NCBI GenBank assembly: GCA_024195585.1
Contig: SWBL01000079.1
Location: 62,001-126,000 of the forward strand
From: Aureobasidium sp. EXF-3400
Lineage: Eukaryota > Ascomycota > Dothideomycetes > Dothideales > Saccotheciaceae
Direction of reading: 5' to 3'
Length of the DNA: 64,000 nt
Part shown: positions 4,148 to 29,798 of the stretch, one piece after another
Layout: each line of letters begins with the position of its first letter
Position numbering within the stretch: the stretch's first letter is position 1
Translations under genes and position numbers: made by a program
Notes under the pieces: model-generated
Told to the model about the DNA's origin: nothing
What the model saw: only the letters and a program-made list of their open reading frames with translations
The model's database searches: none

Positions 4148-4977
4148 ATGAAGAGAGATCAAGGACCAATACAAATGAGACAACCATTCACTTCCTCCTG
4201 CAATCACTATATCTCATGCATATCAATGTAATTGTGCTATCTCCCCGTACAAAGGTATGTATTCAAGTAGTTATAAAAATGCACAATAGTCTTGAGAAAC
4301 AGGATAGCATCCACTGAGAAGCATCTTTTTGCTAGCTCTCTCTGGAAACACCTCTGGATCGAAAACCATCATGCCTTTTTATAGCGTTTTGATCACTTAG
4401 AAGCAGAGTGGGAGTCAGACTACACACCTTCAGACCCTCCTCGACCCCGTGTCTATATCTTCTATCCTCCTTCATGATAATCAAGGCTATCAAAAGGCAC
4501 AGTTCTTTCTAAGGTTGTGGATAGTGCCATAGAGAGCCAACGATACCATGACTCTCAGTGGAAACTTTTTGTTTATCCAAGTGATTATGCAATTTGATAG
4601 TTGTGTACTGACATACCTTTGTACACGGAGAGGTATCAAGAGTTGAAGCCGACAAAAAGTTCAACAAAACCAGTGTCACTGTTTGTCAAACCCCGCAGAC
4701 AAATTGCACGCAACAAAATCCTCAAACTCTTCTGTTTACCACGGTACAAGGCATCATCCCTATCAGAACTCAGTCACTTACTCATACTAGAATATAAGCA
4801 AAAAAAACAGCTTCACCTCCGATTCGACCTCCTGCCCCCTTTTTCCGGTCAGAAAAACACTGTTTACTCCTGTATCAAAAAAGACCCGCTTGAGCCCCAC
4901 TTGTAAACAAAAAAACTTCCCTCATCAACATCTGCCCCCTCTATCAGGGCATATGGCAAGACGGGAGCAAAAAGAGA
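4148..4977. other. intergenic region, 830 bp
   Basis: No supported protein gene. It is AT-rich in places, with A- and T-runs and two TGCCCCCT stretches near 4832 and 4932. Its right end contains the Pol III terminator of the minus-strand tRNA gene. Confidence 0.55.
4969..4973 (-). terminator. Pol III T-run terminator of tRNA-iMet
   Basis: Five consecutive T on the minus strand, starting 5 nt beyond the discriminator base of the tRNA. This is the expected RNA polymerase III stop. The D-arm insert contains no run longer than three T, so Pol III could read through the insert to this site. Confidence 0.75.
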
Positions 4978-5105
4978 TAGCTAAGCTCGGTTTCGATCCG
5001 AGGTCCTCCGGGTTATGAGCCCGGCGCGCTGTAAGGAGTTAGTTGAATGTTATGGTGGTGAATTGGGTGGTAAATGTTACGAACCTTCCGCTGCGCCACT
5101 CAGCT
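4978..5105 (-). tRNA. initiator tRNA-Met (CAT) with a D-arm intron
   Basis: On the minus strand, 5105-5085 and 5028-4978 join into a 72-nt tRNA. The acceptor arms AGCTGAG and CTTAGCT pair over 7 bp with one G-T wobble, and the discriminator is A. The D stem is GCGC/GCGC, and the anticodon stem CCGGG/CCCGG closes loop CTCATAA with anticodon CAT. The T stem CTCGG/CCGAG closes loop ATCGAAA. The ATCG T loop in place of TTCG and the terminal A-T pair mark eukaryotic initiator tRNA. Without removal of 5084-5029 the D stem cannot form. A box (TGGCGCAGCGG) and B box (GGATCGAAACC) are both intact. Either it is a functional gene with a highly unusual intron or a copy broken by an insertion. Confidence 0.85.
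5029..5084 (-). other. 56-nt spliceosomal-type intron inside the tRNA D-arm
   Basis: Read on the minus strand, the insert begins GTTCGT, contains a CTAAC branch-point motif (within CAACTAACTCC) and ends TTACAG. The branch A to the 3' AG is about 10 nt. Length and signals match the mRNA introns of this window; the same donor GTTCGT is used by the intron at 57955-58004. It interrupts the 3' strand of the D stem after the 21st nucleotide, not position 37/38, where tRNA endonuclease introns normally lie. Exact excision restores a perfect initiator tRNA. Confidence 0.75.
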
Positions 5106-5639
5106 TTTTGTGGTGCCAAGTTTTTGGTCTGTCAAAATATATACTATCGACAACAAGCACAAGAGACTGTCAATCACTAAACCCTGTCATCCTCGTCAAT
5201 GGTTCCAAGCACAGAAGATTGGCTAGTTTGAAGCAAAGTGACAGGCAGCGACCTTGCTACACGATCTTGACTTGTTTCCTGTTGTCAAAGACCAGCAGGT
5301 TTTGCAAATATCAGGGTAGTACGACGTTGTTCAGCAACACATGGGCGTACAAAGGACAAGAACCGATCTTTTCAGATGCATAATTTTGATTGCTGGGCTT
5401 TCAGCCATATATCTCCAAAATAATCTAACAACAAGAAAACGCCAATCAAATGCTTCTTCATATGAAAACATAGGCATCAGACAGCCAGATTGATCGCAAC
5501 AACCTAATGCATAAGTGCCTGGTGTTGCAACCTATCTGACCGTCTACCAATAGAAGAAAAAGAACTCTCGATTAAAAATCATGTGCTGTGCAATCTTTTG
5601 CAAACCATAGAACCACCGTGCTGGATATTAAAAAGACAT
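5106..5639. other. intergenic region, 534 bp
   Basis: 5' flank of the tRNA gene and 3' flank of skn7. No other gene is supported. Confidence 0.6.
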
Positions 5640-7967
5640 TCAACCCGGTCTCCTATGCATGGGGTTGAGCGGATTTTGTAGTGGTTGGCCCATGGGTACG
5701 CCTGGTCCCATGTGCGGAGGCATATGTTGAGGTCCAGGACCAAACATCTGTTGCCTTTTGACGTCGGGTCCAACGTCACCGGGCCCGCCCGATATGTCGG
5801 ATATTTGGCGTCTGTGAGGGCCATTGGGTTGCGGCCCAAGACCTGGTGCCATACCGCGGGGAGAGCCACTGAAACTGAGTTGTGAGGGCATGCCTGGTGG
5901 AGGCATGCCGGCCTGCATGTGGTAGGGCGCTGATGGGTGACCAGCCACTCCCATACTATATTCGGTCCCTGCGGCGTCGCTTGCTGCTGGCGACATACCT
6001 AGACCGGTCCCAGGCGATGTCCAGTTGCTAATAGTAGCTGGTGATGTGGCAGGTGACTCTTCGGCTTTCAACACGTTCTTGCCGGCAACTTGAACAAGAG
6101 GTGGTGGTGGTCCTGTGGGACCTCCGTCAATCTGTGCGGCCGACTTCTTCAGGTGACCGAGGTGTTTCTCCAGCATGCTTAACAATCCTTCCTTAGTGAA
6201 AGGCTTGGGAAGCACATCGTTCATGCCTGCAGCGAAATTAGCCTGTTGCCCCAAGAGAGAAGTTGCCAATGTACATACCGTGTTGGAAATACATTGCAAT
6301 GTCATCACTGCGGATGTTCGAGGTCATGGCAATGATTGGTGTGTTGTCGAATTGTCTGATCAAATGGCAAGCAGAGACACCATCAAGGTTGGGCATGATG
6401 ATGTCCATCAACACAAGATCGTACTTTGCGCCGGCATTCATCTTGTTGACTGCTTCCAGACCATCAAGCTGGGATAGAATCAGTACGAATGTTGACAATA
6501 CAGAGGTAGTGTCAGACTTACAGCGCTATCAACTGCGCAGTGGAACGCGTACAAGAACTTGCCGCCTATCCTTCTGCAAGTCTTGTCATCTTCAACGAGC
6601 AATACTTGAGGTTGCCGAATCCAGCCAGGATCATATTGCATGCTCTTCTTTCTTCCATCGGCCACGGGAGGTGCGGGAGCAGGTTCGGGAGCCTTTGCCG
6701 GCATTGCGTAAGGAATGTTGTGAATGTGCTCGCTGAACATGGGGTCGATGCCATTTGTCTGACCGACGGGGTAAACAAGGTTGTCGAGTTCTCCGTATGA
6801 CATGGAGGTGGACGAGGCGGCAGAGTGAGGACCGTGGGTACCGCCTCTTGCGACCCTGGCGTTGGTCCGAAGAGACAGATCTGGAGGAGGTGTGGTAAGG
6901 GCCGAGTTCATCCTCAAGGACATCTCGTTCATGTGTTCAAGGTTGCGCGTGTTCAGGATATGGTCGGCGTTGGTCTCGGAGAGGAGTTTTGCGGCATGCT
7001 GCAGCGGCGATGCGGGCTCGTCTTCTGGAATGGGGGCCTGAGGGGGCTGCTTGCCATTAACGGCACCGGGAAGTGGTGGCGCAAAGGGGTTGGCTACACG
7101 ACTTTCTCTTCGTCGTTGACCATCGACCGACTGCAAGAAGTTCATGACATATTGCATGACGTGCTCGTGGTTGACAACCGTCTTCTGCACGCCGATAAGT
7201 TCTTGGAGGAGCATCGAGTGATGCATGCTGAGCTCGTTGTAGCGCTCTTGCAATTGTTGCAGTTGCTGCTGTGTCGCAACAAGTTGTGTGTTGAAGAGAT
7301 CCATCTGCTGGGTGGGCATCATGTCGTCCATCATGGCGTTGGGCTTGCGCGGTGCAGGCGCCTTTCTTCGAATGTTGTCGAGAGCATCCTTGTTATTGGC
7401 CTTGAAGTCAGGGTGTTTGAATTCCCACGCCTATCAATCTGTCAGTCCTGCCGTCCCATTCTGATGCAACGGAAACAAGAGCCACGTACACCAGCGCCGT
7501 AGGGAGACACGCCGCCCTCTTCATTGTTATGCCGAACTTTGTGGAAGTCATATTTGTTGAGTTGGCGCACAAAACTGGCAAAGTTGCTGTGCTTGAAGTG
7601 CTTTGGCAGAATGTGCTTGGTGAACTTCTCGTTCTGCAGGCCGTTTGGTCAGCGAAGCCTAGGCGTGTGGAGATGATGGATATGCGCACCTCAAGAACGA
7701 CAAAACTGTCGCCTTCATTGCCCCATCGTACTACGCTTTCGTCCTGCGGACTCTCCAACATCCTATCACGAGCCAATTAGATGACGCCATTCAGATTTGA
7801 CGCGCCTGCGCGCAGTCCGATGACCTACTTGTACAACTTGCGAACCTGCCAACACGGAAAATCAGACGTTAGCCATTGCAGCCGAGCGATTGCGCCTTCG
7901 CCTCTGGACGAGAGCCTGCTCAACTTACAAAGTCGCTTGATGTGTTTCCACTACCCTGACCGTCCAT
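5640..7967 (-). CDS. skn7: Skn7/Prr1-type response regulator transcription factor
   Basis: Exons (minus) 7967-7929, 7845-7829, 7762-7690, 7633-7490, 7430-6522, 6468-6279 and 6226-5640 give 652 residues. Residues about 12-120 form an HSF-type DNA-binding domain, with FVRKLYKMLE and [20 protein letters not shown] Gln-rich coiled coil follows, then a receiver domain with VEDD and phospho-acceptor Asp about 416 in LVLMDIIMP, plus NDVLPKPF. The Pro/Gly/Met-rich tail is long. Skn7 receives phosphate from hybrid kinases through Ypd1 in the nucleus and drives oxidative, osmotic and cell-wall stress genes. The start MDGQGSG was chosen because the first exon must splice to the 17-nt exon VRKLYK to complete the DNA-binding helix. 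It lies head-to-head with a peroxiredoxin gene, a plausible target. Confidence 0.93.
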
Positions 7968-22705: not shown

Positions 22706-25700
22706 CTACTTCATTACCTTGAACGCCGATACGCTCCTTGTCGGAAGAGCGGGCAAAGCGGGATTAACAGTAGTTGGCGTGGGAGTCTCCTGCCCATCTC
22801 TTTCCCCATCAACCTCTTCCCCATCAGCAACGGCAGGAGCCACAGTCGGAGCAGCAGGAGCAGTCGGAGGCGTGGACATAGCCACTCCATCAAGCACCTC
22901 CTGACTCAACAAATTCGCCTGTTGTTGCAAATTTGTTATCGTTTTTGGCACTTGATTCAGATATCCCTCCAGCATTTGCTTCAACACATTTGCTCTCACG
23001 GGTTTGGCCAAGTAATTGTTCATTCCAGCCTCCAAGCACTTTTCCTTGTCGCCGCGGATTGCTGATGCTGTCATGGCGATGACCAAGACTTCGCGAACGA
23101 TAGGGTCGGGGTGTGCGCGGATGGCTCTGGTGGCATTATAGCCGTCTAGCACGGGCATTTGGACGTCCATGAGGACCAGGTGGAAGGGTGTCCCGGCTTT
23201 GCTTGCTGCAGCGAGAGCGTCGACGGCTTGTTGGCCGTCCCCGTAGGCTTCGCACTTGAAGCCTAGCTTCCTTACAAAGCTAATGGCGATCTTTGCATTC
23301 AAAGGGTTATCCTCAGCCACGCAGATGCGGAGCTTGTCGCGCGGAATATGGGCCAGACCGATGTATGAGGATTTCTTCATCTCATCTTCGCTGGGTTTGT
23401 ACATTGCTGCCATGGGATCGGCTGGTGGACCCACTGCTCCGTTCTCGGCTCCAGGTCTTATTTTCTGGAAAGGCAGGGAGAAGGAAACGGTTGTTCCTAC
23501 GCCAATTTCACTCTCGAGCCAAATTCTTCCGTGGAGGACTTTTTCGATGATGGCTTTGCAGATGGAGAGACCGAGGCCGGTGCCGCCGTAGCTGCGTGCT
23601 GTGCTGCTGTCTGCTTGACTGAAAGGTTGGAAGAGCTTCTTTCTCTGTTCTTCTGTGATGCCGATACCTGTGTCCGTGACGCTGCAAGTCACCTGAACGG
23701 TATCCTCGGTTTCGTGCTCGATGAATGCTCTGATAGTAACTGTTCCCTTTGCAGTAAACTTGTACGCATTGCTAAGCAAGTTCATGAAAATCTGATGCAA
23801 GCGTACAGGATCACTCATGACGAGCAAACTCGAGGGCATCTCAAGCTTCTCGACAGTTCGCAATCCTTTTTCCAGATTGGTATAGGAAAGCGCCCTAACA
23901 ACCTCGGAAATTGTTTGAGTCAAAGATAGCTGTACGGAATACACAGCCATCTTTTCAGCCTCGAGTTTGCTGAAGTCCAAAATATCGTTGATGACTGAAA
24001 GCAAAGTGTCGGCGCAAACGCGGATGCTGTCTGCATAGCCTTCTTGTTCGTTGTTGAGATTGGTACCCTTGAGCAGCTCGGACATACCAATGACACCGTT
24101 CAGGGGAGTGCGCAGCTCGTGAGAGACGTTCGCCAAGAACATACTCTTCGCCTTCGCAGCTTCCTCTTTGAGCTTGACCATCTCCATAGCTTTGGCTTCT
24201 GCGACCTTGGCTTTCCGCTCGGCTTCACGTGCCTGCTCGAGTGCCTGCCTCTGCACTTCAAGCATAGAAGAGTTGCTCGCCGAGACCTTCTGAACTTTCT
24301 TGAAAAGTAATGCGTTCGCGATCGAGATCGAGATCTGGTTGACAAGCAGGCGGAGAACGGTGATGTTGCGTTGTGATAGCGAGTTGGGAGGTCCTTCGAT
24401 GTAGATTGAGCCGAGTAGGGTATCGTCACCATGTAAGATGGGCAAGGCAATCACAGCCTTGCCTTCAGGGTACTTCTGTCTCCAAGATGCAGGCATGTTT
24501 GCAAATCGCTCATCGTCGAGTACATTGCGCAGGAAAAGTTCCTCCTTGAACCGCAGGACGTAGAATGTGATCTGCTTTGATAACGGATCGTCGATGTCGC
24601 TGATTGCTTGTCCGACATTGTCTTGGTAAGAAATGTCCGGCCCTCCTACAGCAGCGACGTTCCAACCTATTTCATCATCGTTGACGACAAGACCACACAG
24701 AGCGGCTCCTGTACTGTCCACAATGATGTTGGTCAACTTTGCAAGCAACTTGTCGACCCTGAGCTCCGAGGACAGCAGTTGTGAGGACTCCAGAATACTG
24801 GCAAGATCGATCATATCAAGACCGACAGCAGAGAAACCACCTTGCAGATCATGCTGTGTTTCGTGCTGATATGATGTCGTGTTTGCACTTGGAGTCAACC
24901 ACTCATTCGTTCGATCACCAGACGCTTCGGGAGCTTCGTTCTGCACCATGGTGAACGAAATATTCTCGTTCTCGACCGTCTGAGTACCTGCATCTGCGTT
25001 CCCGAAACTCCTAGAGCCAATCAACAAGAATTCATGCCTCTCCTTGACGTGATCAGCCTTTGCCGTAGCAGAGATACGGCGATATGCAGAGATTGCGTCT
25101 CGGATCATCGCGCGCGCAGGACGAGTAGCTCCTCTTCGAACCAAAAAGTCACCATATAGCTCGTAGCACAAAGCCTCATCTGAGAGGAGACCATGCACCA
25201 CTGTATGATCGACGGCGGCCTCATATGACAACGTGGCTATATCAGATCGGTTCTCGATGTCACCAACCTCAGCGCGAAGAAGGTGTAACCAAACAGCAAA
25301 GTTTGATTCATTGATGCGACTCGCCGTCTCAATCTTGGCCTTGAACTTGTAAATGTTTTTGAGAACATCTTCGCGATCAGCACAATTCGGCTCTTCACGC
25401 AACCTCGCAATCATGGCCATTGAAATGTAGAAGTAGCAGTAGTAGGCATGTCGTATGCACCAAACACTCGAGATGGACTCCAGCACAGAGTCGGCGAGTA
25501 CGAGAGCCTCGCGCCAGTATCCAAACCTATACAAGATAGCAACTCTGTAGCTGTTGTAAAAGAAGAGGGGTCGAACGGCAGCCGTGGAGTGAGACTGGAT
25601 GAAGTCGACGTATTGTTGCGTTTGATGGAAATCGTCATCAAAAATATGCGCCGCTTCACGCCAGTTCGTCCTGCCTTGTAACGCTTGAATCCATTGGCGT

Positions 25701-28700
25701 ACTGAAACAAGGAAGACACCTCCACGCAGATCGGTAGGCCACTCTGGGAAGTCCTCGTTTTGGTACTGGATATATGCACCGACTTCCTCGAAATTGTGAG
25801 AGCTCCACAACTTGTACGCACACATGACACCGACGTTCAGCAGGTGGACTAGCTTGTCTCCAGCGAGGACGGTCGCCTCCATACCGCGTTCCAACATCGG
25901 TACTTGGTCTGCGATATCTGAAACGAAGTGTCCAAGGAAAAGGCTGTGCAGTGTGACACCACGGCCGATCGTATAGGAATCGGTGTCGAAGAGATCGAAG
26001 AGCTTCAGAGCTGTGTTGCCAAGTTCGACGCCCTTCTCAATCATCTCAAAACGACCGATGGCAATAGATGCTAGATGAACAAATCCCACAGCAATCTGTG
26101 GGAAGAGTCCCTTTTCGAGGAACAACCGCATCATTTTCAAGGTCAGATAGTAGAACAATAAAGAATCGGTCCAGAACCCGGCGCTGAGAAGCTCAATCAT
26201 GACAGCTGCCGTTGTGAAGAGATTTTGGTCGATTGGCGCATCCCTTCCTTCGAAGAGTTGTCGATCAGTGATGTCGACAAGACCGATAACCTCGTGAAAT
26301 TCCTTGTCGCACTCTTCGTAAGTCGTGTCGAGGATCTCAATACCAAGATCGGCCAGAGCACGCTTCATGTTCAAAAAAGCGATATGGGCGTTTCCTTTTT
26401 GTGCGTGCATTCGACTTTGAATGATGAATGCCGGGGTCTTGTCGGCAGCAGCTTTGGCATTTGACATGATTTCATGAAGAATGATTTCGGCCTCGTCAAG
26501 AAACCCGAGATACCAATACGATGCGGCTGCTTTGGTCATAAGAGTCAGTGTCTCCTGATAAGAACCCTCTGGCGAATTCCATGGATCGTCGGGGAGTAAC
26601 ATTAGACAGTGCTGAAAAAAGTAGAGCGAGATCGATCTTGCTCCCTGCTCTCGGGCGGTCTCTGCTGCCTGATAAAGCAGGTCCCTGAATGGGCCTTTGC
26701 CAATGTTGGGCCGAGCCTGAATCGCCTCCACTGCGTTGCAGATATGTCTGGCTTGGTCGAACAAAAGTTGAGTAGGTTTCGTAGCGCTGTCGTAAGGATC
26801 GTGGTACATCAATGATGCCGAGATGATGTAGTGCATCTCCTCCTTCCGACAGTCCTTGGCAAGGAGTTCGGCCGCTTGCATGTATCTGTCGTGTGAGAAT
26901 CTGAACTTGTCTTCGTCCTCTGTTGCCACGATGATATAAGAGCTGATAGCATCCTGCAAGCCAGTTACTGGATCTTTCTTTGGCGGTAGGTATTCATCCT
27001 TAGACTGCTTGGAACAGTCGCAACTCATGACTCGCTTCACGAGAGTAAATGAAAACGTGTTTCCTATGAAAGCAGCCCAAGAGAGCACAGATTTACAGTC
27101 GTCCGAGAGATCCTCGAGTCGCTTCACAAGGTAATTGTTCGTTGAGAATTGATTGGCGTCTGGCGAAGCGAATTCGTCGAAGGTTTTGTCAAGGTCGAAT
27201 TCCCATTGTGATGATCGCCACGAGTAGTATATGCAATGCTTCCGGTAGCAAGAATCAAGCATCTCTCGAACAAAGAACGGGTTGCCAAGAGTTGCTTGCT
27301 GAATGACAGCAGCGAGGGGTAGAACATACTCGGGAGAGCGGTGCAGAGTTAGGGCTACGTATTTGGACGTGTCCTCCTCAGTAAAAGGCTTGAGGTCAAT
27401 TTTGGTCGCTTTCTCTAGTAAAGGTCGGAGTTTGGCGGGGAGTGCTTCTTCATCACGGTAAGTAAGAACGAGCACTATAGGTATCTTGACCTGAACGATA
27501 CTCGTTAGAAGCTCAATACTCTCTTCGTCCGCGAACTGTAGATCATCAAGCGTCAAGCAGATGAATTTCTGCAGTGCTAGCAGTCGCAACACGTCAAGGA
27601 AGGTGCGAACAAAACGGTTTGACTTGCTCGAATTACTGCCTCCCGCGCGTAACCAATCAGAAGCTGTATCTCCACTGCTGCCACACTTCTCACGAGGCAG
27701 CCGTAGCGAGGCAGAGTCTGAACTCAAAGAAGATTGGTGAGTAGGAAACTGAGACAGTAGCCAGGGCGGAAGATCGAGGAAACCAGAAAGGAAGCCCCAG
27801 TACGGCTTGATGTATGTACGAATATTGTCGTGGAAAGGGGTTGAAACGTCTCCTTCGGAAAAGATTTGACGGAAAAGAGAGGACATCACGCGCACCACTG
27901 GCTCGAAAGGTGCCCGTTTGACTTGGTCGAATTTGGCTGACGCGTAATAGCCATATTTTCTCGACATGTTCTGCACGTCATGCAATAGAGAACTCTTTCC
28001 AAGTCCTGCAGCGCCGCTGAGACACAGAACCTCGGTGTGGCCAATCTGCTTGAGGCGTTGTGCTGCGCGAAGGGCAGATCCTTCGGATTGACCAGTCATA
28101 GAATTCGAAACACTAGACCTTTGGCTGCTCTCAAGGTTATACACGGAAGGCCTGCTCTCTAAAGACGGCTTGTGCTCCAGTTCGGCACCATTGTAGGCTA
28201 CATTACTGCCTTGCGAGCTGTGTTCATAGTGCAGCTTCGAAAGTTCAGGTCGCTCTGCTGAGAGAGAGGGTTTGGGCTCATGCTCAACATCAGCATTTGA
28301 ATCTGTGCTCTGGGACATGATATCGTCCAAGAGGCCGCTTTCATGCCGATCAGGCCTTGTAGGCGTCGAAACCGAGGCCGAAGAGTGCGAGCTCAGACTA
28401 AGGTTATGCAAGCTTTTCTTGGAGGTCGAGATGGCTTGGGAAACACGCAAAGCAGAGTTTTCAATGACATCGAGGATTACTTTTCGTTGCTCATCGCGCC
28501 CAATCTGCGAGTTAGGCAAGTTGAAGAAGCAAGAGACATCCTTGGAACCCAGTTTGAAAGACTGCAGTGCGTCGACATCACCTTCGGATAACAGCCTCTT
28601 GATCTCGAGTAGATCGTATTTCAATCCGGAGGAGCTCTGGTAGCGGTCTCCCATCTTCTTCTGTGTCATTCTCTGTATGACGTTCGAGATAATTTGGGGC

Positions 28701-29798
28701 ACATCAGTGCGTACGCTATCAACTGCAGGGACACGGCGAGACAACAGGTTCTGCATGATCTCAAGAGGGTTGCCTCCATGATAGGCGGGTACTCCAGTCA
28801 GCATAGTCCAGAACAGGATACCAAGCGAGTATATATCGGTCCTTGTATCGGGTTCAGCAGGCATGCGACCAGTCTGCTCCGGAGCTATAAACTGCAGACG
28901 GTTTTCAACGCCAGCTTCAGAGGTCAACGAGCTCCATCCAGCAGATGTAAGGCCATTTTCGAAGGAGCGAGCACCAGAACCAAAATTGATCAAGCGCACA
29001 GTTCGATTCTCCTTGCTAAAGTGGAAGGCATCACCGCGAAGCTCTCCGTGGACCAACTCTCTGCTGTGGTGAAGGATCTCGCAACATTCAGTAGCTCCGA
29101 TAGCGAAATCGAGAAAGAGGCCGATAGGTAGTACTTCGGGAATGGGTGAATGGTCAGGTTCGGGGTGTGCGAGTGGACTGAGGGGCGTGGTAGGCAGCTG
29201 CTGTGGGCGACGTAGACCTGGACCGAACTCGACCAGCTCTTTCATGTAGTCGCCGCCACTGTCCGGGGCTCGGGCAATGAAAGCGACGAGGGAGACTTCT
29301 CCCGGTTGGCGCGGCGGGAGTCTGCGGAACTCGATAGGGTCTATGAAGTGGAGACAGTCGGGGTCGTCTTCTGCTTTTAGCCTCTTTGCTAGACCAAACT
29401 CGCGCTCAAGGCGAGTCGTGTGGCGGGAGATGCGTGCGACGACATCGTAGCCCTGTTGTGCATCAGATACGCTCCGTTCGCTCTCTTTGTCTCTATTTCT
29501 TTCTATCGTCTCGCGGTCTTTTCGGCGGTCCTTGCTGGTAGATCTACTTGATGGTTTGCTTGATTTGCGATCAACGGGCTGTGAAGCACGGCGGTATCCA
29601 TGGACGTGCCAGTTGTCGTAGGACTGTACTCTATCGTCAGCAAGATGACGTCTCTCTAACAACGCGTTGGCATACCGAATGGAAAGGAGCAATGCTATCA
29701 TCCCAGTCGTAGGCAGGGGCCTCAGTTCGTAGTCGTTCAAACAGGCGGGCGACCAGAAACTGAGTGTCCAGTTCGGCCTTGACTCTGGCCTCCATCAT
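22706..29798 (-). CDS. group X hybrid histidine kinase (kinase-like, AAA-ATPase, GAF, HisKA, HATPase, receiver)
   Basis: Exons (minus) 29798-29676 and 29623-22706 give 2346 residues; the ATG is preceded in frame by a stop. Order of domains: a serine/threonine kinase-like domain (about 50-400), an AAA/TPR-like region with Walker A GAAGLGKSS (about 580) and LTLDDLQFAD, and a GAF domain (about 1650-1800). Then come HisKA with NVSHELRTPLNG (about 1870), HATPase with NLLSNAYKFT and GGTGLGLSI, and a receiver with phospho-Asp in LVLMDVQMP (about 2190). This is the architecture of S. pombe Mak2/Mak3 and Candida Chk1, which sense peroxide and signal through Ypd1 to Skn7- and Ssk1-type regulators. The kinase-like domain has HGELRGD for HRD and INFG for DFG, so it is probably a pseudokinase. 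Confidence 0.93.

Follow-up and report, generated by a model that had tools for sequence, protein, structure and literature searches.

Initiator tRNA-Met genes with a putative spliceosomal intron in the D stem in Aureobasidium sp. EXF-3400

The window analysed here, the whole stretch of 64,000 nucleotides, contains on its minus strand an initiator tRNA-Met(CAT) gene (iMet) at 5105..4978 whose D stem is broken by a 56-nt GT-AG insert (5084..5029), and this insert is likely a spliceosomal intron in a working tRNA gene that is transcribed by RNA polymerase III (Pol III). The combination of Pol III and the spliceosome is the best supported reading because in eight paralogs the splice signals are under constraint and the tRNA parts are undamaged, two further genes have the site empty, a relative of the insert interrupts a GH30 gene, and both U6 genes found in this genome have mRNA-type introns as well. 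The first-pass annotation had placed three options side by side, namely spliceosomal processing of a Pol III transcript, a tRNA supplied from a Pol II transcript, and an intron-like element that had killed the gene, and the first appears, judging from the sequences, to be the best supported of the three.

Anatomy of the interrupted gene

The gene and its signals are arranged as follows.

4978..5105, minus strand: interrupted initiator tRNA-Met(CAT) gene (called by ARAGORN in the joined form only; Rfam match to the 3' part, 22.5 bits)
5085..5105, minus strand: 5' tRNA exon, 21 nt (acceptor 5' strand, D stem 5' strand, D loop and first base of the 3' D strand)
5029..5084, minus strand: spliceosomal-type intron, GT...AG, 56 nt (site common to 8 of the 10 iMet genes found)
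5079..5084, minus strand: 5' splice site GTTCGT (GTTCGTAA in 8/8)
5038..5042, minus strand: branch motif CTAAC, presumed branch A at 5039 (CTRAC 14 nt from the intron end in 8/8)
5029..5031, minus strand: 3' splice site CAG (AG in 8/8)
4978..5028, minus strand: 3' tRNA exon, 51 nt (anticodon, T arm, acceptor 3' strand)
5087..5098, minus strand: A box region, tRNA positions 8-19, unbroken (read from the letters; box positions after PMC3978253, in excerpt)
4989..4999, minus strand: B box GGATCGAAACC, unbroken (read from the letters)
4969..4973, minus strand: T5 run, Pol III terminator-like, beginning 5 nt past the gene
5134..5143, minus strand: TATA-like element TATATATTTT, beginning 38 nt upstream

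Excision of 5084..5029 results in a 72-nt tRNA-Met(CAT) in which every stem is formed, with a full cloverleaf, a CAT anticodon and a T loop that reads A54-U55-C56, which is a criterion for initiator tRNAs (PMC3978253, in excerpt). ARAGORN called a single tRNA-Met when the exons were joined and no tRNA when the 128 nt were left as they are, and the Rfam tRNA model, with a cut-off of 29 bits, matched just the 3' part of the window gene. It had been claimed in the first-pass annotation that the tRNA is complete only without these 56 nt and that the Pol III boxes and the terminator are retained; the letters, when re-read, and the ARAGORN result agree with the former, and the presence of the A box, the B box and the T5 run bears out the latter. 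The insert starts with GTTCGT, contains CTAAC and ends with TTACAG (CTAACTCCTTACAG). By sequence alone, its boundary can shift across a common AG, giving three equivalent registers, and in the GT-AG register the insert would interrupt the D stem between tRNA positions 22 and 23, directly past the A box. Elsewhere in the window, 22706-29740 on the minus strand encodes a long hybrid histidine kinase with a kinase-like domain (just under the cut-off) and AAA, GAF, HisKA, HATPase and receiver domains.

Most eukaryotic tRNA introns are located at position 37/38 and are substrates of the tRNA endonuclease. The iMet insert resembles these canonical introns in being an intervening sequence in a nuclear tRNA gene, but it differs from them in its position at 22/23, in its GT-AG and branch signals, and in that no bulge-helix-bulge was seen.

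The iMet gene family

A search of the organism's own genome (53.4 Mb in 717 contigs) with the window gene, in which all counts are lower bounds, returned 12 places: eight iMet genes with the insert (L001-L008), two iMet genes without it (L016 and L017), and two insert copies that have no tRNA around them, both at one locus (L018). The suggestion to look for uninterrupted iMet copies was thus answered by two of them in a genome with at least ten iMet genes. In the eight interrupted genes, the insert is found at one identical site on eight separate contigs, with upstream flanks that are at most 68% identical, a pattern that, on the letters, is far beyond chance. L016 and L017 read GGAAGCGCG, the exact joined form with an empty junction, and scored 61.8 and 61.9 bits with Rfam; ARAGORN, as run, called both of them tRNA-Met and called none of the eight interrupted genes. 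Apart from this family, a cluster of seven tRNAs (Val, Ala, Glu, Leu, Met, Met, Thr) was observed at L019 (C432), which we would guess to be on a mitochondrial contig.

The tRNA parts of the eight interrupted copies are the same, except that one T-stem pair differs, with compensation, and that L008 has a 7-nt insert, and the letters of the 5' exon are identical in all eight and in both uninterrupted genes. The T-stem pair reads CTCGG/CCGAG in L001-L003 and L016 and CTTGG/CCAAG in L004-L008 and L017; since each type includes both interrupted and uninterrupted genes, one or more additional events (loss, gain or conversion) must have taken place. Gene conversion could partly be behind the identical tRNA exons, yet the introns should then have been homogenised too. 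With regard to Pol III signals, the A box, the B box and a T run are present, the boxes being read from identical exons. A run of 4-7 T, starting at +3 to +8, is located downstream of all ten iMet genes found, and a loose TATA-like match was detected 32-54 nt upstream of seven of the eight interrupted genes (not L008) and of one of the two uninterrupted genes (not L016).

The L008 copy (on C17) has both the D-arm intron and, at the canonical 37/38 place in the anticodon loop, its 7-nt insert, which is either a very short endonuclease intron or a sign of decay. This copy may be decaying, and its anticodon-loop insert, its missing TATA-like match and its branch motif, CTGAC, count against the reading of the interrupted genes as working ones. 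Furthermore, the cell could draw on the two uninterrupted iMet genes, and therefore the interrupted ones need not work and the cell need not depend on splicing. The first-pass annotation had held that the absence of spliced reads together with other intact iMet genes would make the window gene a pseudogene, and of this, the part on intact iMet genes stands. It could accordingly be proposed that the interrupted copies are dead or dying, that is, that an intron-like element entered a single iMet gene, that duplication of this gene followed, and that the two high-scoring uninterrupted genes do all the work, and the state of L008 fits this proposal. In contrast, all 72 tRNA positions, bar the compensated pair, were kept in seven copies while the introns became near-random relative to each other, and the donor, the branch spacing, the AG and the G-poor body were all kept as well. 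The option of a killed gene is thus weak, because the tRNA parts were retained while the introns drifted apart, and we consider dead copies unlikely.

Constraint on the inserts

The eight iMet inserts are 52-56 nt long, and their bodies are similar to each other only at the level of shuffled sequences in 25 of the 28 pairs (p of 0.05 or more). The three pairs that are more alike than shuffles are L002-L005, L004-L006 and L007-L008, and the divergence of the iMet introns is therefore incomplete. Despite the drift of the bodies, the splice signals were kept: the donor GTTCGTAA, the GT and the AG are found in 8/8, and CTRAC starts exactly 14 nt from the insert end in 8/8, compared with a range of 10-19 nt in 27 mRNA-intron-like sequences of this genome, which are pattern matches rather than proven introns and from which the two U6 introns were left out. 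The bodies also have an unusual base composition. Their G content is 4.2% (9/216), versus 19.4% in the 27 mRNA-intron-like sequences (Fisher p ~5e-9) and 21.9% in the upstream flanks (Fisher p ~3e-12). Three of the 27 mRNA-like introns are equally G-poor (8% or less), and the make-up of the iMet inserts is thus unusual rather than unique. Since neutral drift would have restored G, the occurrence of G-poor bodies in all eight inserts suggests that they are under constraint.

TTTT stops Pol III, and the absence of a T4 run from the window insert, which had been pointed out before, extends to all eight inserts; this absence alone is a weak argument, because TTTT is rare in mRNA-like introns too (4/27). 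The B-box consensus is GGTTCGANNCC, and a B-box-like reading of GGTTCGTAAC may be a reason for the conservation of GGTTCGTAAC. When searched for genome-wide, the pattern GGTTCGTAA..CTAAC..AG had 11 matches, of which 7 belong to iMet genes and 4 to other places, compared with 13 in the reversed control. A D-arm GT..CTAAC insert in other tRNAs was sought with patterns that covered two common A-box types at that place only and that would miss the iMet A box, and the 1 and 0 matches, against 4 and 4 in the reversed controls, are at the level of chance; in the scoring of tRNA candidates, 63 of 1936 were scored. The same arrangement had no match in viral contigs and two in bacterial contigs, which were taken as chance.

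The consensus fold of seven copies (L008 not given) is a cloverleaf with the intron off the D arm. In this fold the donor pairs with the branch region (GGTTCGT with ACTAACT), with no covariation, and the single-sequence folds differ among copies. In the mechanism that we propose, Pol III would transcribe the gene by means of its unbroken A and B boxes and end at the T run 3-8 nt past the gene, the G-poor intron would protrude from the D arm and let the cloverleaf form, the spliceosome would remove 52-56 nt from the D stem via GTTCGT, CTRAC and AG, and the tRNA, presumably a normal iMet, would be able to fold once the intron is removed.

The fold also bears on the question of whether the insert is instead a non-canonical tRNA intron that is cut out by the tRNA splicing endonuclease. 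D-arm introns are found in some archaea, nucleomorphs and Cyanidioschyzon (PMC4090602 and PMC3978253, in excerpt), the position 22/23 is on record for archaea (PMC4090602, in excerpt), and the extra insert of L008 is located at 37/38. However, the likeness to the introns of archaea, nucleomorphs and Cyanidioschyzon is one of position: according to the same excerpts these are endonuclease substrates or introns whose excision is unknown, whereas the letters conserved in the iMet inserts are splice signals. In addition, the window insert has a relative among mRNA introns, and in the consensus fold of seven of the eight copies the D stem and the donor-branch helix are separated by a long internal loop, and no bulge-helix-bulge is formed. 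Removal by the endonuclease is barely credible in our estimation.

A related intron in a GH30 gene

Relatives of the window insert were found at one locus in the genome, in two copies. This locus, L018 (C542:19500-21900), is a GH30 glycosidase gene (PF02055), whose frame is broken at QWSI/YMHNAF by 52 nt, GTGAGATTT...CTAACTCCTTACAG, and the window insert is 91% identical to this intron over 54 nt and 93% identical to the inverted partial copy. A GH30 paralog on another contig has residues 1-421 in one open frame and, being without the intron, reads through the insertion site at 83% DNA identity. The presence of the intron in one GH30 gene and its absence from the paralog indicate that it is a precise mRNA intron akin to the tRNA insert. 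The inverted partial GH30 copy at L018 is located ~1.7 kb away, and both copies carry the related intron, with the donors GTGAGA and GTAAAA.

Transfer from the tRNA to the GH30 gene would be the simpler direction, though it is not proved, because there is a paralog without the intron and because the window insert belongs to a tRNA family. The start of the GH30 intron corresponds to a point 4 nt downstream of the tRNA donor, and insertion of the whole 56 nt into the GH30 site could have created a TCGT-TCGT repeat that was collapsible to the observed form. The other seven iMet inserts, without their first four bases, matched only themselves in the genome at E up to 1. The first-pass annotation had recommended a search for similar sequences elsewhere, such as introner-like elements; the GH30 locus was found in this way, and a large multi-copy introner-like family was not. 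The case is comparable to fungal introner-like elements (PMC4457414, in excerpt) in that a closely similar intron is present at two unlinked places, but it differs from them in that, of the eight tRNA introns, only that of the window was matched elsewhere, at a single GH30 locus with its inverted partial copy.

Choice of the donor site

The pattern GTAAGT..CTAAC..CAG has 857 matches genome-wide and 217 in the reversed-pattern control, whereas GTTCGT..CTAAC..CAG has 119 and 378, so that there is no excess in the raw count; the GTAACA donor, with 76 matches against 270, is likewise below its control. The rarity of GTTCGT and its raw count stand against our reading of the insert. The reversed controls differ in base make-up from the patterns, and therefore the donors were compared by match lengths. 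The lengths of the GTTCGT matches peak at intron size, and among the matches listed (92 of 100, with 7 iMet matches and 1 nested duplicate left out) ~38 of the 92 are above the expectation from longer matches, compared with a smaller length-based excess of ~18 of 69 among those listed for GTAACA. Furthermore, GTTCGT fits the U1-complementary consensus at 7 of 11 positions and the alternative GTAACA at 5 of 11. From the match lengths we read GTTCGT as a donor that is rare but probably genuine. The statement that the insert has the host's mRNA-intron signals therefore holds for the branch motif and the AG, and less well for the donor, which is atypical and weakly supported.

A donor 4 nt downstream, at GTAAC, would leave GTTC in the product, which would then be a tRNA-Met variant of 76 nt whose D loop is enlarged. 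The start of the related GH30 intron, which is at exactly that point, would fit a tRNA donor at GTAACA and counts against our preferred donor, the conservation of GTTC would be explained if it were exon, and ARAGORN still calls the 76-nt product tRNA-Met, although at 108.5 versus 117.0 for the 72-nt form. Against this, GTTC is absent from the uninterrupted paralogs, the product would have one D-stem pair fewer, position 5 of this donor is C or T, not G, in 8/8, and its length excess is the smaller one. We regard the downstream donor as improbable and retain GTTCGT as the 5' splice site.

U6 introns and other interrupted non-coding RNAs

The search for U6, in which 47 of 3461 candidates were scored, found two genes above the cut-off, L066 (C230:57241-57342) and L067 (C246:43952-44051), both of which have a GT-AG mRNA-type intron containing CTAAC; no uninterrupted U6 gene was found among the candidates scored. 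In both, the match is good through GGAUG and then continues with GUGAGUUCG instead of the ACAC of the Rfam model, and ACACATGC resumes after an insert, of 56 nt in L066 and 54 nt in L067, that ends with CAG and has CTAAC ahead of it. These introns contain the B-box-like TTCGATCC or TTCGAACC. The S. pombe U6 intron also has a B-box-like sequence inside, and fungal U6 introns were reportedly the subject of work by Canzler in 2016. Among other structured RNAs, L068 (C219:56009-56147) is 5.8S rRNA-like at 35 bits (cut-off 42), and no intact 5.8S gene was found in the assembly.

U6 is an established product of Pol III, as PMC10484740 also states, and its splicing in S. pombe is treated there, with Tani and Ohshima cited (in excerpt). 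If both U6 genes found here work, splicing must act on a transcript from a Pol III gene, and thus this genome appears, from its U6 sequences, to splice a Pol III RNA already. This also bears on the idea that the tRNA comes from a Pol II transcript whose intron is spliced as usual, for which read-through from a same-strand 222-aa ORF that ends at 5640, 535 nt upstream of the tRNA gene, is possible. The A and B boxes, the TATA-like elements and the T-run terminators are preserved across the copies, and both U6 genes combine an intron with Pol III-type signals, which makes a Pol II origin very improbable and transcription by Pol III the preferred reading.

Fungal U6 introns, in S. pombe and others, are mRNA-type introns inside a short structured Pol III RNA, and by sequence anatomy the iMet inserts would be so too; the iMet host differs in being a tRNA whose exons contain both internal promoter boxes. 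U6 and U3 were described in 2017 as the only small structured RNAs that are often interrupted by spliceosomal introns (PMC5832005, in excerpt). The GT-AG introns of fungal U3 snoRNA are likewise located in a structured non-coding RNA, though U3 is not a tRNA, and the same applies to the spliceosomal introns of ascomycete rRNA genes and of a Rhodotorula U2 gene, known here from titles cited in PMC2586383, which are mRNA-type introns in fungal non-coding RNA genes whose hosts are not tRNA genes. Among the literature matches listed, from a collection with few subscription papers, none reported a tRNA gene that is interrupted by a spliceosomal intron, and the available excerpts of three papers about the tRNAs and small RNAs of nucleomorphs (PMC4494063, PMC4035089 and PMC6461891) contain nothing on such introns in tRNA genes.

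Implications

If the proposed reading is correct, a spliceosome-dependent tRNA would break the rule that nuclear tRNA introns belong to the tRNA endonuclease, a short Pol III transcript with a 5' exon of 21 nt could be spliced, and translation initiation would be linked to the spliceosome. Such genes may also escape annotation, since ARAGORN missed all eight interrupted copies and the search for non-canonical introns in tRNAscan-SE 2.0 is described for archaea (PMC8450103, in excerpt). A bolder proposal, which seems possible to us but is advanced tentatively, is that this organism owes most of its initiator tRNA to the spliceosome, which would tie translation initiation to splicing capacity, and that one tRNA intron entered a protein gene, perhaps through reverse splicing, in which case the tRNA gene was the source of a new mRNA intron. 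The GH30 case would then be a traceable intron transfer and provide a handle on the origin of new introns.
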